Shown: positions 10,109-32,384 of the stretch, in pieces
Position numbering within the stretch: the stretch's first letter is position 1
Layout: each line of letters opens with the position of its first letter
NCBI RefSeq assembly: GCF_002019645.1
Contig: NZ_KV917374.1
Coordinates: 2,120,696-2,184,695 of the forward strand
Length of the DNA: 64,000 bases
From: Litchfieldia alkalitelluris
GTDB taxonomy: Bacteria; Bacillota; Bacilli; Bacillales; Bacillaceae_L
Direction: 5' to 3'
The notes under the pieces: model-generated
Databases searched by the model: none
Told to the model about the DNA's origin: nothing
The model's input: only the letters and a program-made list of their open reading frames with translations
Made by a program: the position numbers and the translations under genes

Positions 10109-10150
10109 AAAAACTTTTAAACAATAGTGAAATGTATATTCTTGTGTTGG

Positions 10151-10370
10151 TAGACGTCCATGCGAATAAGAATTTGCACCATGGCGTATGAAAATAGTGC
10201 ATTCACCTAGTGTGGAATGAGCGGAGAGCCACCTGACTCCTGCGGGATCTAGCGGTCTCGTGAGACCCCGCGCAGTCGCCCAAAAAGCGACGAGGAGGCT
10301 CACGGACCGCCCCGCGGAAAGCAGGTGGATCGCAGCTCATGGAACTCCGCTAACTAAGTTATTTTCAGGG
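10151..10370. repeat. GC-rich palindromic repeat, copy B (220 bp, inverted orientation)
   Basis: A 220-bp unit runs from TAGACGTCCATGCG to AAGTTATTTTCAGGG. It contains the GC-rich palindromic core in the opposite orientation to copies A, D and E, plus an AT-rich flank with GCACCATGG and GTATGAAAA. It is followed at once by copy C of exactly the same length. Confidence 0.9.
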
Positions 10371-10590
10371 TAGACATCTATGCTAATTAAAATTAGCACC
10401 ATGGAGTATGAAAAAATGTTTCCTCCTCAGTGTGGAATGAGCGGAGAGCCACTTGACTCCTGCGGGATCCAGTGGTCTCGTGAGACCCCGCAGGAGCCCG
10501 CCCCTGGCGACGAGGAGGCTCACGGACCACCCCGCGGAAAGCAAGTGGATCGCAGCTCATGGAACTACACAACCTAAGTTATTTTCAGGG
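10371..10590. repeat. GC-rich palindromic repeat, copy C (220 bp, tandem with B)
   Basis: A second 220-bp unit begins TAGACATCTATGC and ends AAGTTATTTTCAGGG, directly abutting copy B. Differences are scattered substitutions, so this is a true tandem duplication that has since diverged, not an assembly artefact. Open frames across it are by-products of the GC-rich core. Confidence 0.9.
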
Positions 10591-10687
10591 TAGACACTTA
10601 GTTCAATAATATAAGACTCGTGAACTCTCTTGTGTATAACTCCCTCGCTAAAACTAAAAACATAACAATTACTTTGATTATAAAGAA

Positions 10688-21304: not shown

Positions 21305-21327
21305 AAAACAGTAATACTTTAAACGCA

Positions 21328-21578
21328 CTTGAGAGGTCATAGTAGTGATAACTTCAATGTTATAGAGAGCTGATGGTTGGTGTAAATCAGTACATAGGTT
21401 ATCATGAATTACTACCTTTAGCTTCTTTTGGGAACATAATGATTGTAGTATCATCATTAGTAGCAAAAGACGGTTTTCCCGTTATCGAAACTTGAGATAA
21501 GAACATTCTTTGTTCTTAAGTAGGGTGGTACCGCGATCAAAACTCGCCCCTTCGTTTACGAAGGGGCGAGTTTTTTAT
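21328..21578 (+). ncRNA. T-box leader controlling tyrS
   Basis: The leader contains the T-box sequence AGGGTGGTACCGCG (21523-21536), which pairs with uncharged tRNA acceptor ends in the antiterminator, followed by a perfect terminator hairpin with T run (21539-21576). In stem I the loop-E pieces AGTA (21342) and GAA (21406) flank the specifier loop, which reads TTACTACC and contains the tyrosine codon UAC. Uncharged tRNA-Tyr should allow read-through into tyrS. The codon choice is read from sequence and agrees with the downstream gene. Confidence 0.93.
21539..21576 (+). terminator. T-box regulated terminator
   Basis: AAAACTCGCCCCTTCG pairs perfectly with CGAAGGGGCGAGTTTT and is followed by T's. 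The T-box sequence just upstream forms the competing antiterminator. Confidence 0.92.
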
Positions 21579-26541: not shown

Positions 26542-28374
26542 GTGGGTGATGATAATATGTTATTACAGCAAGACGAAGTTCAACAATTACTTATTTTTAA
26601 GAGCAGCTTATATGAAATAATGACTCTTGAGAACGAAAACGACAATATCGTTGAAAAATTAGTTGAACAGGTAAAAATTGTGTTTGCGATTAGGAATGTT
26701 TCTATCTTTTTGTATGATGAATGGAAAGAAAGATATATACTATCAGCAACAACTCAGCCAACTTCTTTAAAAAAATTCGAAATTACTTCTCCCGAGGAAG
26801 TTAAGGATTCAAGTGAATGGAAACTACCAATGGAAATAAATGGTGAAAATATCGGGGTTATGTTGTTCGAACTTGAAGACTTTTCTTCAATAAGCACTAA
26901 ATTAATTATGTCCATTGTAACCGAGTGCACGAAAATAGTTGATCGCTTTCAAAGACTGTCTAAGTTTTTAAATGAAGAGCTCCGTTATGAACGGTTATTT
27001 GGTTTAACAGCCAAGTTCCATTCTTCCATGAATATTGATGATGTTCTTGGTGAAGTGATAAAAACACTTCAAAATGTGTATCCAACTTTTACATATTATT
27101 TATTGTTATCACATGATAATGTTGCAAGTGATAACCTACCAATAAAAGATTTAAAATATCATAATTATGAGAGCTCTGCAGCTGTACAAGCATTTGTTAC
27201 TGGAAATATACAAAGAGAAGATTTTATTAAAAATCGGCAATCGGCGCTTTATGCACCATTAAAAGGAAAGCAAGGTGTATATGGGGTTCTCCAAGTAATC
27301 GCACCAAATCATGTGATATTTCCAAACCATGAAACCAATTTTATCGAGTTACTTGCAAATACAGCAGGCAGTGCGTTAGAAAATGCCCAACTTTACCAGC
27401 AATCTAAAAGACTTGTAGCAGATCTCCAACTTATAAATGACACAACTCATCGATTGAATTCAAACCTTAGATTAACTGATACTATTTCATTTATGTCCGA
27501 ACAAATTATTAAATACTTAGTAGCGGATGAGGTTGGATTTATAAGTTTTGAATTAGGTAAAGATTCTCAAGTGCTTCCGGGCAGTACAGGCTATTTCTTT
27601 TCGGAAGAAGCATTAAGCATTATTGAATTCTCACAAGCAAAAATCAAAGATGAACGTGACACGTTATTTGTGGGTGACTTTGATCATGATATTGTCGAAG
27701 ATGAGGAGTCAACAAAGTTTAGTTCATTAATGGCTGTGCCTATGGTTCATAATGGTGAGGTTAAGGGCATTGCAATCGTTCTACATAGAAATCCATATTT
27801 CTTTTCATTTGACACATTTAAATTGTTTCAATCTCTTATTCATCATTCAACCTTGGCTTTTTCAAACTCAACGTTACGTGAAGAACTTGAGAATTTGGTG
27901 ATAACGGATCATTTAACAAAGCTGCGATCACGTAATTTTCTTGATGATAGAATTCATAAATCAATGGAAAACGATTTACAAGGAACCTTCATCTTAATTG
28001 ATATTGATAATTTTAAGAATATTAATGATACGCATGGCCATCAGGTCGGAGACTCGGTCATTATACAGGTGGCTGATTTGCTAAAAGCGAATATAAGAGA
28101 TCAAGATATCGGTGCAAGGTGGGGTGGTGAGGAGCTTGCCATTTACTTACCAAAAGTAGCAAAGCAGGTTGGAGTCGTCGTCGCTAATAGACTCGTTGAG
28201 AAAGTCCAAAGTAATACAAAACCAAAAGTAACCATCTCCTGTGGAATCGCCGATTGGAAAAAAGAGCAGAAAGATACCGTTCAAAATCTTTTCCATCGTG
28301 CCGACAAGGCGTTATATGCTGCAAAAGAGGCTGGGAAGAACAGGGTCATTGTGCAGGGAATGGTTGTGAATTAA
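26542..28374 (+). CDS. dgcP: GAF-GGDEF diguanylate cyclase (DgcP/YtrP type)
   Basis: The 610-residue soluble protein carries GAF-like sensor repeats (about residues 10-145, 150-295 and 305-440) followed by a GGDEF domain (about 445-605). The active-site motif reads GGEEL near 527, with an intact inhibitory-site motif RDQD five residues upstream, so it should make cyclic di-GMP and be feedback-inhibited. No EAL domain is present. B. subtilis DgcP (YtrP) has a similar build and lies in the same neighbourhood. The start is GTG 26542 after GGTGAG, or ATG 26557; the two differ by 5 residues. The ligands of the GAF domains are unknown. Confidence 0.88.
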   Translation: MGDDNMLLQQDEVQQLLIFKSSLYEIMTLENENDNIVEKLVEQVKIVFAIRNVSIFLYDEWKERYILSATTQPTSLKKFEITSPEEVKDSSEWKLPMEINGENIGVMLFELEDFSSISTKLIMSIVTECTKIVDRFQRLSKFLNEELRYERLFGLTAKFHSSMNIDDVLGEVIKTLQNVYPTFTYYLLLSHDNVASDNLPIKDLKYHNYESSAAVQAFVTGNIQREDFIKNRQSALYAPLKGKQGVYGVLQVIAPNHVIFPNHETNFIELLANTAGSALENAQLYQQSKRLVADLQLINDTTHRLNSNLRLTDTISFMSEQIIKYLVADEVGFISFELGKDSQVLPGSTGYFFSEEALSIIEFSQAKIKDERDTLFVGDFDHDIVEDEESTKFSSLMAVPMVHNGEVKGIAIVLHRNPYFFSFDTFKLFQSLIHHSTLAFSNSTLREELENLVITDHLTKLRSRNFLDDRIHKSMENDLQGTFILIDIDNFKNINDTHGHQVGDSVIIQVADLLKANIRDQDIGARWGGEELAIYLPKVAKQVGVVVANRLVEKVQSNTKPKVTISCGIADWKKEQKDTVQNLFHRADKALYAAKEAGKNRVIVQGMVVN

Positions 28375-28383
28375 TTTATTTTT

Positions 28384-28417
28384 AAGTGCTTCGCTCGGTT
28401 GAGTGGGGCGCTTTTTT
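28384..28417 (+). terminator. Intrinsic terminator after dgcP
   Basis: AAGTGCT and CTC pair with GAG and GGCGCTT (with G-U pairs), followed by T's. It separates dgcP from the repeat array, so the array is probably not transcribed from the dgcP promoter. Confidence 0.8.
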
Positions 28418-28480
28418 GTTTTGTTTAATGGGGAGCTAGTAGGTGCGGGGGAAGCAGAATATAATATAGTGAGTAAGAGA

Positions 28481-29722
28481 GAAAGGGAATGAAAGAACGA
28501 TTCTGATTCCGTTTCAGTAGTGACTCGGGGGAGAAAGGGAATGAAAGAACGAGTCTGATTCCCTTTCAGTAGTGTATTGGGGTAGAAGGGAATGAAAGAG
28601 CGAGTCTGATTCCCTTTCAGTAGTGTATTGGGGTAGAAGGGAATGAAAGAGCGATTCTGATTCCCTTTCAATAGTGAATCGAGATAAAAAGGGAACGAAA
28701 GAGCAAGTCTGATTCCCTTTCAATAGTGAATCGGGGTAGAAAGGGAACGAAAGAGCAAGTCTGATTCCCTTTCAATAGTGTATCGGGTAGAAAGGGAACG
28801 AAAGAGCGAGTCTGATTCCCTTTCAATAGTGTATCGGGTAGAAAGGGAACGAAAGAGCGAGTCTGATTCCCTTTCAATAGTGAATCGGGGTAGAAAGGGA
28901 ACGAAAGAGCAAGTCTGATTCCCTTTCAATAGTGTATCGGGGTAGAAAGGGAACGAAAGAGCAAGTCTGATTCCCTTTCAGTAGTGCATCGGAGGAGAAA
29001 GGGAACGAAAGAGCAAGTCTGATTCCCTTTCAGTAGTGAATCGGAGGAGAAAGGGAACGAAAGAGCAAGTCTGATTCCCTTTCAATAGTGAATCGGGGTA
29101 GAAAGGGAACGAAAGAGCAAGTCTGATTCCCTTTCAGTAGTGCATCGGAGGAGAAAGGGAACGAAAGAGCAAGTCTGATTCCCTTTCAGTAGTGCATCGG
29201 GGTAGAAAGGGAATGAAAGAGCGAGTCTGATTCCCTTTCAGTAGTGAATCGGGGTAGAAAGGGAACGAAAGAGCAAGTCTGATTCCCTTTCAGTAGTGCA
29301 TCGGGGTAGAAAGGGAATGAAAGAGCGAGTCTGATTCCCTTTCAGTAGTGTATCGGGGTAGAAAGGGAATGAAAGAGCAAGTCTGATTCCCTTTCAGTAG
29401 TGCATCGGAGGAGAAAGGGAACGAAAGAGCAAGTCTGATTCCCTTTCAGTAGTGAATCGAGGTAGAAAGGGAATGAAAGAGCAAGTCTGATTCCCTTTCA
29501 GTAGTGCATCGGGGTAGAAAGGGAATGAAAGAGCGAGTCTGATTCCCTTTCAGTAGTGTATCGGGGTAGAAAGGGAATGAAAGAGCAAGTCTGATTCCCT
29601 TTCGGTAGTGCATCGGGGGAGAAAGGGAATGAAAGAGCGAGTCTGATTCCCTTTCAGTAGTTAATTGGGGTAGAAAAGGAATGAAAGAACGAGTCTGATT
29701 CCCTTTCAGAAGTGCATCGGAG
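28481..29722. repeat. 52-bp tandem hairpin repeat array, left part (24 units)
   Basis: Twenty-four head-to-tail units of 51-52 bp. Each has GAAAGGGAA, then about 16 bases (variants of YGAAAGAGCRAGTCTGA), then TTCCCTTTC, then a linker AGTAGTGNATCGGGGTA. The two 9-base arms are inverted repeats, so every unit can form a hairpin. Unit variants (AATG with GCGAGT, AACG with GCAAGT; linkers CATCGGAGG, GAATCGGGG, GTATCGGGT) are interspersed, as expected from unequal exchange. The unit is not a multiple of three and there is no unique spacer, so it is neither coding nor CRISPR. Confidence 0.97.
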
Positions 29723-29837
29723 TCAAGTCCTGATTATTGTGTAAAATTCTTATACAATGTTTTCAACAACTTTTTAGTGATTTATTGTTTTATCCCCATA
29801 CATTTTTTTTTGCGAATTCTTCCATGGTTTTTTGTTT

Positions 29838-29895
29838 GCATATCCAGGAAAGGTTGTCAAAGGCACTTCACTTTGACAGCCTTTCCTGGATATGC
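29838..29895. repeat. Long hairpin inside the IS, 3' of the transposase
   Basis: GCATATCCAGGAAAGG (29838-29853) pairs with CCTTTCCTGGATATGC (29880-29895), and TGTCAAAG with CTTTGACA inside, giving about 24 nearly continuous base pairs. It lacks a T run, so it is not a standard terminator; it may block read-through or have a role in transposition control. Confidence 0.75.
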
Positions 29896-29927
29896 GATTA
29901 TTCCATAATGGAAGGTTCAAAAAACAA

Positions 29928-31094
29928 CTAATGCATTAACGATTTTCTTTTAGCGTAAATAGACTCTTGATATTCCATTAATATTGCACCTATCAATCTA
30001 AAAGCAGATTGTGTATTTGGGAATATACGAATAACTCTTTCTCTTCGACGCACCTCTTGATTTAAGCGTTCAAGAGAATTAGTGCTTCGTATGTGTGGAC
30101 GTATTTTTTCTGGATAATTCATGTACTGAATGGTATCTTCGAAACCATCTTCTAAGATAGCTAAAGCCTTCTCATACTTTGAGTTGTTTCCAAATTGGCT
30201 TATCAGTTCATCTTTGAATATTCGAATGTCTTCAATAGTAATGGCTTCAAAGATACGCTTAACCATCATACGTACATCAGTTGAATCTTTCTTTGGTAGC
30301 TTATTAAAAATATTACGTTTAAAATGTACGTTGCATCTTTGCCAGCAAGTTCCTACAAATTCACGTTGTATGGCCTTTTGTAGTCCTTTATGAGCATCTG
30401 ATATCACTAGTTGTGGGGATTGAAGCCCGCGTGATTTAAGCTGTTGTAAAAAGCGGCTCCAACACTCATAATCCTCTTCATGATCTACGCTTAAACCTAG
30501 TATTTCACGTGTATTCTTTTCAGTTATAGCTGTAGCAATATAAACTGCTTTTGATACGACCTTGTGATGTTCACGGACTTTAATATACATGGCATCTACA
30601 AAGAGGTATGGATAGTATCTTGTGTTTAAAGGACGATTAGCCCAACCTTTTACAATTGGATCAAGCTTCTCTGTGAGGGAGGAAACAAACGATTTTGATA
30701 CAGCTTCACCACAAAGTTGTTCAACAATCTGAGTAACCTTTCGAGTAGATACACCATTAATAACCATTTCTAACATAGAGATGACAAGAGCTTGATCACA
30801 TCGTGCGTATTTTTCAAATACGGATGTAGAAAACTCACCATTACGAGTCCTTGGTACTTTAAGAGTTATTCTACCAATGTTCAAGATTAACTCACGTTCA
30901 TAGTAGCCATTTCGATAATCACGGCGATCTTCAGAGCGTTCATAGGGAGATACACGTAAATAATCATTTCTTTCTTTCTCCATTACCTCATTTAAAACTA
31001 GAACAACAGCAGACTTAATAACTGCATCAATATCCGAATTCATTACTGATTCTTTTAAAACTTCCAAATCTAGGTTAAACTGTAAGTGGGTCAT
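29928..31094 (-). CDS. IS256-family transposase
   Basis: The 388-residue transposase of the mutator/IS256 type has its DDE triad visible at Asp167 (LFVDAMYI), Asp233 (LVISDAHKG) and Glu342 (STNSLERLNQEVRRRERV), plus the family C/H motif CWQRCNVHF at 250-258. It cuts and joins the element ends. The ATG at 31092-31094 follows AGAGGA and gives MTHLQFNLDLEVLK; an upstream in-frame ATG at 31112 is less likely. The gene looks intact, so the element may still move. Confidence 0.95.
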   Translation of the reverse strand: MTHLQFNLDLEVLKESVMNSDIDAVIKSAVVLVLNEVMEKERNDYLRVSPYERSEDRRDYRNGYYERELILNIGRITLKVPRTRNGEFSTSVFEKYARCDQALVISMLEMVINGVSTRKVTQIVEQLCGEAVSKSFVSSLTEKLDPIVKGWANRPLNTRYYPYLFVDAMYIKVREHHKVVSKAVYIATAITEKNTREILGLSVDHEEDYECWSRFLQQLKSRGLQSPQLVISDAHKGLQKAIQREFVGTCWQRCNVHFKRNIFNKLPKKDSTDVRMMVKRIFEAITIEDIRIFKDELISQFGNNSKYEKALAILEDGFEDTIQYMNYPEKIRPHIRSTNSLERLNQEVRRRERVIRIFPNTQSAFRLIGAILMEYQESIYAKRKSLMH

Positions 31095-31195
31095 TATTAT
31101 TCCTCTTTTCATTGTTTATCGTAGCTGAAAACATTGTAGCCAAGAGTGAATAATATGAACCCTTTTTCTTTTTACACAATTATACGGACTTAATC

Positions 31196-31356
31196 GTGCA
31201 TCGGAGGAGAAAGGGAACGAAAGAGCAAGTCTGATTCCCTTTCAGTAGTGCATCGGAGGAGAAAGGGAACGAAAGAGCAAGTCTGATTCCCTTTCAGTAG
31301 TGAAGCGGGGTAGAAAGGGAATGAAAGAGCGAGTCTGATTCCCTTTCAGTAGTGAA
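31196..31356. repeat. 52-bp tandem hairpin repeat array, right part (3 units)
   Basis: Three more units of the same repeat continue after the IS, in the same orientation and phase as the left part, bringing the total to 27. They end at AGTAGTGAACCTGG, 75 bp before the 3' end of the NERD gene. Confidence 0.95.
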
Positions 31357-31430: not shown

Positions 31431-32384
31431 TCAATTACTGGATTCAATTAAGGGAGAGTTCTTTTTATCAGTCTTAATATAATGAGACGACTTACTATGA
31501 CCTTCAAGCTTGAAATGCTCGCTAAGTATTCTTAAAATCGTTTTTTTTGATTTCACAATCATACACCATTCCAAAACCCCTCTAGAAGTTATTTGCATAT
31601 CTGGAAAAAGTCTCGTGAATTCCTCAATAGTCCGCAATACGGCTGAATCAACACTTTCCGCTAGACCACAAGAATCACAGGAAATTGTGTGTTTTCCTAC
31701 AGCCTTAGTAAATGACTGACACCTCACACAAGTAATCCCTTTAGCAAGCTGATTATAAGTATATTCAAATGTTTTTAGATAAGGTGATTTTGGAATATGT
31801 CGCGATAATAACAAGTTAGCCAATTTAAAACATCGATCATTCAGTTTCTGTGATTCCAATGAAAGTTTCTTAATAAAGCGCTCTAGCTGTGTTGGAAATA
31901 TAATTGGGTGATCGGTAGAACACTGATAGAGGTGAAATTCGGGGTTTACAAAAACAAGATATGATCTAATCGAATATTTCAAACCTAGTTCTTGTAACAT
32001 TCGTTGAAAGAGGCCATCACTCCGTTTTAATTGGTCTAATGGATTGTTTATCAACTTTTTGGGTGTAACATACCATTGGTCTCCTTCAATTAAATAATCA
32101 CCCTCATAATTTTTGACTTCAAATATAAGAATTGTACCTTGGGTAATAAGAATCTTATCAATTTGAAAAATAGTATTATTAATTTCAAAAAGTAAATCAT
32201 CTAATGCAATCCATTCATCTGTCAACACAGAAAGTTTTTCGTCAAGAAGAAGTTCACCCTGTAACCCTTTTTCTAGATTAAAGTAATAGCTTTCCTGGTC
32301 CATTAGGTTTGTTCGGATTTTTAGTGATCTCAGAATTAATAGTTCTTCTGATTCAGATCTTTGTTTTAAAACATGAATTACCAT
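31431..32384 (-). CDS. NERD (nuclease-related) domain protein with zinc-finger-like tail
   Basis: Residues about 35-150 form a NERD domain: KGLQGELLLDE (Glu), FQIDKILIT (Asp) and LIFEVKNYEG (E-x-K), the arrangement of Holliday-junction-resolvase-like nuclease folds. A C-terminal CVRC ... CDSC cluster (about 222-241) looks like a small zinc ribbon. The 317-residue protein has no signal or membrane segment. It may act on DNA, but no substrate is known for the family. GGAGGTG lies very close to the ATG at 32384, so a slightly later start is possible. It is the gene next to the repeat array; a link is not shown. Confidence 0.78.
   Translation of the reverse strand: MVIHVLKQRSESEELLILRSLKIRTNLMDQESYYFNLEKGLQGELLLDEKLSVLTDEWIALDDLLFEINNTIFQIDKILITQGTILIFEVKNYEGDYLIEGDQWYVTPKKLINNPLDQLKRSDGLFQRMLQELGLKYSIRSYLVFVNPEFHLYQCSTDHPIIFPTQLERFIKKLSLESQKLNDRCFKLANLLLSRHIPKSPYLKTFEYTYNQLAKGITCVRCQSFTKAVGKHTISCDSCGLAESVDSAVLRTIEEFTRLFPDMQITSRGVLEWCMIVKSKKTILRILSEHFKLEGHSKSSHYIKTDKKNSPLIESSN

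Follow-up and report, generated by a model that had tools for sequence, protein, structure and literature searches.

A 52-bp tandem repeat array of Litchfieldia alkalitelluris and the adjacent NERD-domain gene, its proposed partner

Tandem repeats of constant length and variable sequence have been described in Bacillus by Subirana and Messeguer, who counted 4029 tandem repeats in 176 genomes, 1886 of them of 51–53 nt and 781 of 20–21 nt (PMC8161180). The repeats are species-specific and often hold short conserved sequences together with their reverse (PMC8161180). The accessible part of that paper names neither a function nor a protein and states that evidence is lacking for a Cas-like protein dedicated to the 52-nt repeats; its authors suggested an unnamed polymerising protein, and a term search of the main text found neither "NERD" nor "nuclease". 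In a second paper the same authors reported transcription in B. coagulans, with RNA-seq matches (PMC8625621). Here we describe an array of this kind and the NERD-domain gene behind it in a 64,000-nt stretch of Litchfieldia alkalitelluris (contig NZ_KV917374.1, positions 2,120,696 to 2,184,695; hereafter the window). The original prediction, made from the letters of the window, knew of no named family with such a unit. This did not hold, because the class had been published as 52-nt and 20–21-nt constant-length repeats (PMC8161180), and the window array belongs to it: its unit is within 51–53 nt, is noncoding and is not a multiple of three in length, and contains a short sequence and its reverse within one repeat. 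Several families of the same length and different sequence exist in the genome (A, which includes the window array, B and C at 52 bp; D and F in a ~20.8-bp phase), and their sequences are species-specific, the tighter family A core being present in this one of 17 genomes of the taxonomic family and absent from the other 16, and the family B core in one of 60 genomes, with none in the 59 others searched. As an exception, some arrays share cores between sister species with close NERDs. What differs from the published description is that here NERD genes of two clades are tied to two repeat designs. The accessible accounts of RepRanger, a 2008 stem-loop survey and SPADE do not describe this repeat class, and the literature searched, of partial coverage, contained no report tying NERD genes to 52-nt or 20–21-nt repeats; the repeat class itself is already known, and the linkage of NERD genes to the arrays is new.

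A described partnership of comparable form is REP-RAYT, where, according to the accessible text, a gene lies beside dispersed palindromic repeats, with several pairs per genome, signs of co-variation between gene and repeat, and species-specific intergenic repeats (PMC2817692). The NERD loci resemble it in that the gene has its own repeat family beside it, a genome holds several such genes, and the repeats, whose turnover is fast and species-specific, are scattered between genes. They differ in that RAYT is a transposase related to IS200/IS605, whereas the window gene encodes a NERD protein with no transposase match in Pfam; that REPs flank their gene on both sides in inverted orientation, whereas the array is one-sided at the eight class I loci (defined below) read for 1.5 kb both ways; and that the NERD-linked repeats form head-to-tail arrays of about five helical turns per unit. 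The proposed module is therefore, with an unrelated protein and a one-sided array, not a member of REP-RAYT, but by analogy it may work like one. We slightly favour the reading that the array and its adjoining NERD gene are parts of a single genetic module, in which the NERD protein would bind, cut and spread the arrays in a REP-RAYT-like manner. A broader proposal, which we put forward tentatively and at somewhat less than even confidence, is that NERDs of the two clades and helically phased arrays make up a two-part element across Bacillales, in which a nuclease would recognise, make and spread its own satellite DNA and the geometry of its assembly would set the 52-bp and 20.8-bp periods.

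The NERD gene of the window (31431–32384, minus strand, recognised from its open reading frame, Pfam and alignment) encodes a protein of 317 aa and turns its 3′ end toward the array at a distance of 77 bp; unmentioned in the original prediction, it proved key to the reading of the array. NERDs of its clade (class I) are ~36–51% identical to the window NERD and had 52-bp arrays alongside in the loci read, which form a part of the NERD matches found, most matches lying outside it. In a first set of ten NERD loci from seven genomes, picked by protein score and including the window's own, nine had an array by the NERD gene, namely a 51–53-bp array at eight of nine class I genes and a short 21-bp array at the one gene of class II. 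For a prospective set, ten additional class I genes were taken from ten other genomes and the sequence behind each, at most 600 bp, was fetched before looking; eight of these ten had 51–53-bp arrays. Altogether, 16 of 19 class I genes, the window's own included, have a 51–53-bp array close on their 3′ side. Where 1.5 kb was read on both sides, the array lay 3′ of the gene in 8/8 cases, 10–123 bp off, and in the prospective set the repeat-finder bounds lay ~20–240 bp from the gene end. As controls, dgcP and apt were read in 17 family genomes together with their 1.5-kb flanks; arrays occurred at 2/34 loci, both in the own genome, where these genes had been chosen for their arrays, and at 0/32 elsewhere, where a single locus gave a 40-bp match of 1.9 copies. 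The comparison of class I with control genes gives a Fisher p of 1.4e-10 (3.8e-7 for the prospective part alone, and 3.6e-10 when the gene of the window is left out).

A second clade of NERDs (class II, ~21–32% identity) adjoins arrays of another design. All four that were read lie next to ~21-bp-phased arrays (own families D and F, and genomes G007 and G016), and three of these four (L055, cut by the stretch end, L066 and L152) are all the class II genes that were met in stretches sampled regardless of NERD. Array design follows NERD clade in the loci read, with 52-bp units in class I and ~21-bp sub-repeats in class II. A NERD gene of a third type (L065, 12014–12766), whose 250-aa product has a hydrophobic start, as judged by eye, and a topoisomerase-type zinc ribbon, is followed at 40 bp by a family C array; this adjacency may be a coincidence. 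A weak partial NERD match in L140 is separated from the array in its stretch by over 11 kb.

Where groups allowed a comparison, the sequence of the array can apparently follow the protein, as orthologous NERDs share array cores there. Thirteen genomes were searched with the NERD of G012:C26, which has relatives in G013:C1 (71% identical) and G009:C37 (68%); the arrays of both share the core of the G012:C26 array at local scores of 29–32 (shuffled sequences: mean 8.0, maximum 13), and eight other NERD-linked arrays, with NERD identities of 41–56%, score 6–10 against it. With G012 as the query, the rank correlation of NERD bits and array score was 0.68 (p 0.016, n=10). Further similar pairs of NERD-linked arrays were G005–G006 (62) and G008–G011 (30), and the two nearest NERDs of the window NERD, in G004 and G010, also carry the two arrays most similar to its own (15 and 17). 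Some dispersed arrays also resemble a NERD-linked array within their own genome, as in own family B (27), G003 (26) and G002 (19), and the L145 array of G003 matches those of G005 and G006 (39–49). At a wider distance, a profile of 12 NERDs detected full-length NERD in eight of 14 genomes from 14 other families, and class I NERD, assigned by bit scores, in five of them. Within the 20–40 kb sampled per genome, and with relatedness ignored, arrays were found in six of the eight genomes with full-length NERD versus 0/6 without (p 0.010), and 52-bp arrays in three of the five genomes with class I NERD versus 0/9 without (p 0.027).

The window protein contains a NERD domain (Pfam PF08378, E 9.2e-18, residues 39–146), the zinc-ribbon-like cysteines C219, C222, C236 and C239, and a conserved C-terminal region. 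In an alignment of 12 NERDs, G43, E44, D63, Q74, D76, K91, N92, G95 and the four cysteines are invariant, and E89 is kept in 11, with D in the remaining one. The E, D and (D/E)xK residues of a putative PD-(D/E)XK motif are thereby kept as E44, D76 and K91 in 12/12 proteins and E89 in 11/12. This pattern is the one expected of a PD-(D/E)XK nuclease that carries a zinc ribbon, and the protein is probably PD-(D/E)XK-like. NCBIfam returned weak matches, far under the cut-off, to MADS6 (four of four proteins) and BREX PglW (three of four). Both share the NERD domain with the window protein, as does SmdA of Staphylococcus aureus, a membrane protein whose authors state, in the accessible text, that to their knowledge the role of the NERD domain in bacteria had never been studied before (PMC9040797). 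Unlike PglW, MADS6 and SmdA, the window protein combines the lack of a kinase match with zinc-ribbon-like cysteines and the conserved C-terminal region. The search of phages and viral contigs found no NERD match, and the plasmid search gave one distant archaeal match.

The window array was resolved by Tandem Repeats Finder into a left part (28480–29720, no strand; period 52, 23.9 copies, 93% matches) and a right part (31196–31354, no strand; period 52, 3.1 copies), confirming the predicted 24 and 3 units of 52 bp, 27 in total, split by an insertion sequence (IS). Both halves are in the same phase, also as predicted, because removing the IS and one target duplicate leaves one 52-bp unit (hand count). 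The inverted 9-mers GAAAGGGAA and TTCCCTTTC alternate at 26 bp in either direction (19 and 16 successive pairs), these being the two commonest spacings between them in the array, and each 52-bp unit thus consists of two half-sites and two equal hairpin options. The predicted hairpin kept its 9-base arms; its loop of about 16 bases was revised, since 26-bp spacing both ways means a loop of 17, and what had been called "loop" and "linker" can each be the hairpin loop. In the 19 units of the window array that measure 52 bp exactly, with the register anchored on CTGATTCC, the deviation per site was 0.009 in arms, 0.099 in linker and 0.053 in loop (permutation p 0.016). Arms were invariant and linkers diverged in an alignment of 13 family A arrays as well, most of which had been located through those very arms, making the arm conservation partly ascertained; the earlier statement that arms are kept while linkers and loops vary was thus upheld within the window and across these 13 arrays. 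Minus-strand open reading frames of 69–119 aa run across the array; since 52 cannot be divided by three, we regard them as spurious. Like CRISPR, the array has regular units with constant and variable parts; it differs in its 52-bp units, in variable parts that are shared and homogenised with no unique spacers, and in the many arrays per genome (units alone were compared, and no cas search was made). Short repeats with unique spacers do not appear in the unit listing, and the predicted lack of a CRISPR match holds on the units.

In the 5.43-Mb genome, the core GGGAAN{11,20}TCTGATTCCC has 104 matches, of which the 100 listed fall in 13 places, and it has no match in two other genomes of the genus. 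For family B (TTCGGACAGCTTT .. AAAGCTGTCTGAA), 127 matches were counted on the forward strand and 113 on the reverse, with certain places matched on both; one of its arrays (C1:1958498-1961110) shows a ~1.6-kb break among 52-bp-spaced units, as in the window array, and perhaps holds another insertion. Forty evenly spaced 20-kb stretches of the own genome (800 kb) contained the further families C (period 52), D (104) and F (186), the last two composed of sub-repeats of ~21. The 16 arrays in these stretches extrapolate to a density of ~1 per 50 kb, and the arrays are dispersed. Relative to the replication fork, the orientation of family A at 14 places was 9 against and 5 with, and that of family D was 8 to 3 (hand counts). 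A fork-polar site was rejected on these counts, and the suggested role in chromosome segregation, like one as a fork-directed site, was not borne out, since the arrays are dispersed and without clear fork strand bias. Gaps holding arrays favour convergent genes (13/41 vs 109/765) and avoid divergent ones (3/41 vs 164/765). In 11 of 15 family A arrays, one flank matches at least four other loci, often as a composite ~250-bp repeat, and of the flanks of two family C arrays one matches 12 loci; carriage by a dispersed element was rejected, as the window array, the arrays of L046, L050 and L069, and those of families B, D and F match 0–2 loci per flank. Carriage by plasmids, phages or viruses was rejected too, as searches of plasmids, phages and viral contigs with the array segment or core returned nothing, and named genomes scanned for its pattern yielded 0 matches (the own record was possibly left out there). 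The composite repeat of ~200–250 bp (CCATGGTGCGAAT..GATGTCTACCCTGAAAA..CACTCGC..CGCGGG..) occurs at window 10149–10596 and in flanks in L042, L043 and L047–L049, recurs in many genome stretches, and often abuts family A arrays. A separate tandem family of 30–40 bp (AAGCGTGAGAACCGTCCC..GCTTCCCC) occurs in L057 (3680–3805, 9057–9199 and 17074–17182) and L045 (11376–11462); it falls outside the 10.4-bp rule given below, and two members were classed as within open frames.

Unit length was compared with a sister sample of 42 stretches (840 kb) from five sister genomes and an order sample of 24 stretches (480 kb) from 14 genomes of other families, and both contained arrays of like lengths and differing sequences. 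Under the criteria used (noncoding, at least 2.7 copies, period at least 25), there were 39 noncoding arrays, 16 from the own genome, 18 from the family and 5 from the order, and the periods of 37 of them differ from a multiple of 10.4 by no more than 1.3 bp, a pitch that was picked after the data had been seen. Control DNA of 78 loci (1.255 Mb, mostly from unrelated bacteria) had 0 arrays by the same criteria versus 16 in 800 kb of the own genome, and looser criteria brought up one array there, of period 128 and 2.1 copies. Arrays of the window type are not chance products. Across genomes, class I units from the first set resemble each other barely more than shuffled ones do (similarity 0.423 vs 0.411, 143 pairs): unit length is locked and sequence is not. 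A significant palindrome was found in 20 of 28 class I units examined versus 2 of 11 class II units. Power of A/T at 10.4 bp was the highest both at harmonic 5 of 52 in 28 class I units (z 6.3) and at harmonic 10 of 104 in nine class II units (z 15). Three further candidates were tried and rejected or set aside. Intrinsic curvature, under a wedge model with Bolshoy parameters, had a class I mean z of -0.6, with 2/28 units beyond the background 5th percentile and 0/9 in class II; one motif for all arrays (EM, width 12) reached a log-likelihood of 70 vs a shuffled mean of 47 and maximum of 55, a value inflated by related arrays; and for selection on A/T class in linkers, the class is kept in 44% of A mismatches vs 25% in dispersed repeats, yet in 28% in G001. 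An array of G020 (L243, 9419–9626) has period 35/70 and fits no multiple of 10.4, and the NERDs of that genome score like the second clade only.

The binding, assembly, cutting and spread that we infer for the module would run as follows. The NERD protein, with its PD-(D/E)XK-like domain, zinc ribbon and C-terminal region, would recognise inverted half-sites of ~9–12 bp of its own array family, and the fixed 52-bp spacing, about five helical turns, would be the geometry that places neighbouring protein units on one face of the DNA, cooperative binding of half-sites fixing the helical phase. Cutting or nicking at arrays could promote repair-driven unequal exchange and gene conversion, which would create new copies, homogenise each array and seed further arrays sharing its core at other intergenic places. 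Among the roles that had been suggested for the array, one of protein-binding sites fits best, the sites being predicted ones.

Several observations weigh against this proposal. Concerning adjacency, no array stands within 1.5 kb of L117 (G007), a class I locus that could be read; the two prospective misses are a contig end with no array seen and a stretch that is mostly N; of the four class II arrays, three are on the 5′ side of their gene and one, the short array of G016, is on the 3′ side; no class I or II NERD was found beside family C; and most arrays in the sampled stretches are away from NERD genes. Concerning co-variation, the core comparison leaves out G015:C130 (79%), G007:C36 (68%) and G008:C6 (66%); the two dispersed G012 arrays compared fall outside the 22 best pairs; with the window NERD as the query the rank correlation is 0.12 (n=15, not significant); and the co-occurrence p becomes 0.085 without G020 and G062, the G020 array being that of period 35/70. 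Concerning the protein, one NERD, that of family B, has DIK in place of EVK, a search of the PDB gave no solved structure matching the NERD part, and a single-sequence structure model was useless (pLDDT 33) and was not used. Concerning phase, A/T phasing is weak in 14 NERD-linked class I arrays, where 10.4 bp has the highest mean among four harmonics (2.39) and is strongest in 5/14, and the E. coli tldD-yhdP BIME-2, of period 91, is without a 10.4-bp signal.

The main rival is a pure nucleoid-binding role, in which NERD would bind phased sites and bridge or coat DNA between genes without cutting, the arrays serving as nucleoid or topological anchors. Such a platform would account for periods near multiples of 10.4 bp, for the preference for convergent over divergent gaps and for the lack of clear fork polarity. 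We consider it unlikely, because the catalytic-type residues are kept, needlessly for a mere scaffold, and because array positions are not conserved, with an array at either of two orthologous gaps in 0/16 other family genomes (many of them drafts). It is improbable, too, that the arrays are neutral satellites produced by slippage and recombination, with a mechanistic bias setting unit length and the arrays merely gathering near NERD genes: the adjacency to NERD genes far exceeds that of the control genes, close NERD orthologs share an array core, and arms are conserved over 13 arrays while linkers diverge (as said, partly ascertained), even if the fast turnover of positions and sequences and the dispersed repeats abutting 11/15 family A arrays are what neutral satellites would show.

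Sites for gyrase or another wrapping enzyme, similar to the BIME-2 elements of E. coli and with an A/T oscillation at helical pitch that would attract a topoisomerase between genes, would be in line with the 10.4-bp peaks of both classes. A periodic GC preference of 10–11 bp has been described for E. coli gyrase (PMC6379681) and, in the accessible text of a comparison of three gyrases including that of B. anthracis, for these as well (PMC12324340). Helical A/T periodicity is present in the first unit set and weak in the NERD-linked one (10.4 strongest in 5 of its 14 arrays), and the array pitch of 10.35–10.40 departs from the 10.75 of the motif of E. coli gyrase. Most of the predicted curvature is ordinary, power at 10.4 bp is 0.82 in the tldD-yhdP BIME-2 and 1.85 in the sucB-sucC one, and the NERD linkage is left unexplained, all of which makes this reading highly improbable. 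The least probable is an RNA function, with transcribed hairpin repeats acting as small RNAs or sponges: the processed hairpin RNA that had been suggested keeps some footing in the B. coagulans transcription and in a fold z of -2.55 for 312 nt of the array, and is opposed by class II units mostly lacking palindromes, no clear strand preference, a unit length near whole helical turns, which is a DNA feature, and no Rfam match of the array at gathering score.

Other features of the window lie outside the proposed module. To the left of the array, a GAF-GGDEF gene (26542–28374, plus strand; open reading frame, Pfam GGDEF E 3.5e-41) is called dgcP-like here. The predicted terminator between this gene and the array was found as a terminator-like hairpin at 28384–28413 on the plus strand. 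The IS within an array linker (29722–31195, minus strand; open reading frame, repeats and Pfam) is a later insertion; its transposase (29928–31112, minus strand, 394 aa) is of the Transposase_mut/MULE-domain Mutator family (Pfam E 2.7e-127), and the IS has imperfect terminal inverted repeats and a 9–10-bp target duplication, GTGCATCGG(A), at 29712 and 31196, as read by eye. A T-box leader lies at 21319–21554 (Rfam RF00230, 149 bits).

For the biology of these Bacillales, the linked gene gives a possible partner for a repeat class that, in the accessible text of its description, was published without function or protein (PMC8161180). If the proposed module is real, the NERD domain would gain a natural DNA target, and a partnership like that of REP and RAYT would have arisen a second time, with an unrelated enzyme. 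The geometry of a protein assembly could then be read straight from genome sequence, as a fixed number of helical turns.

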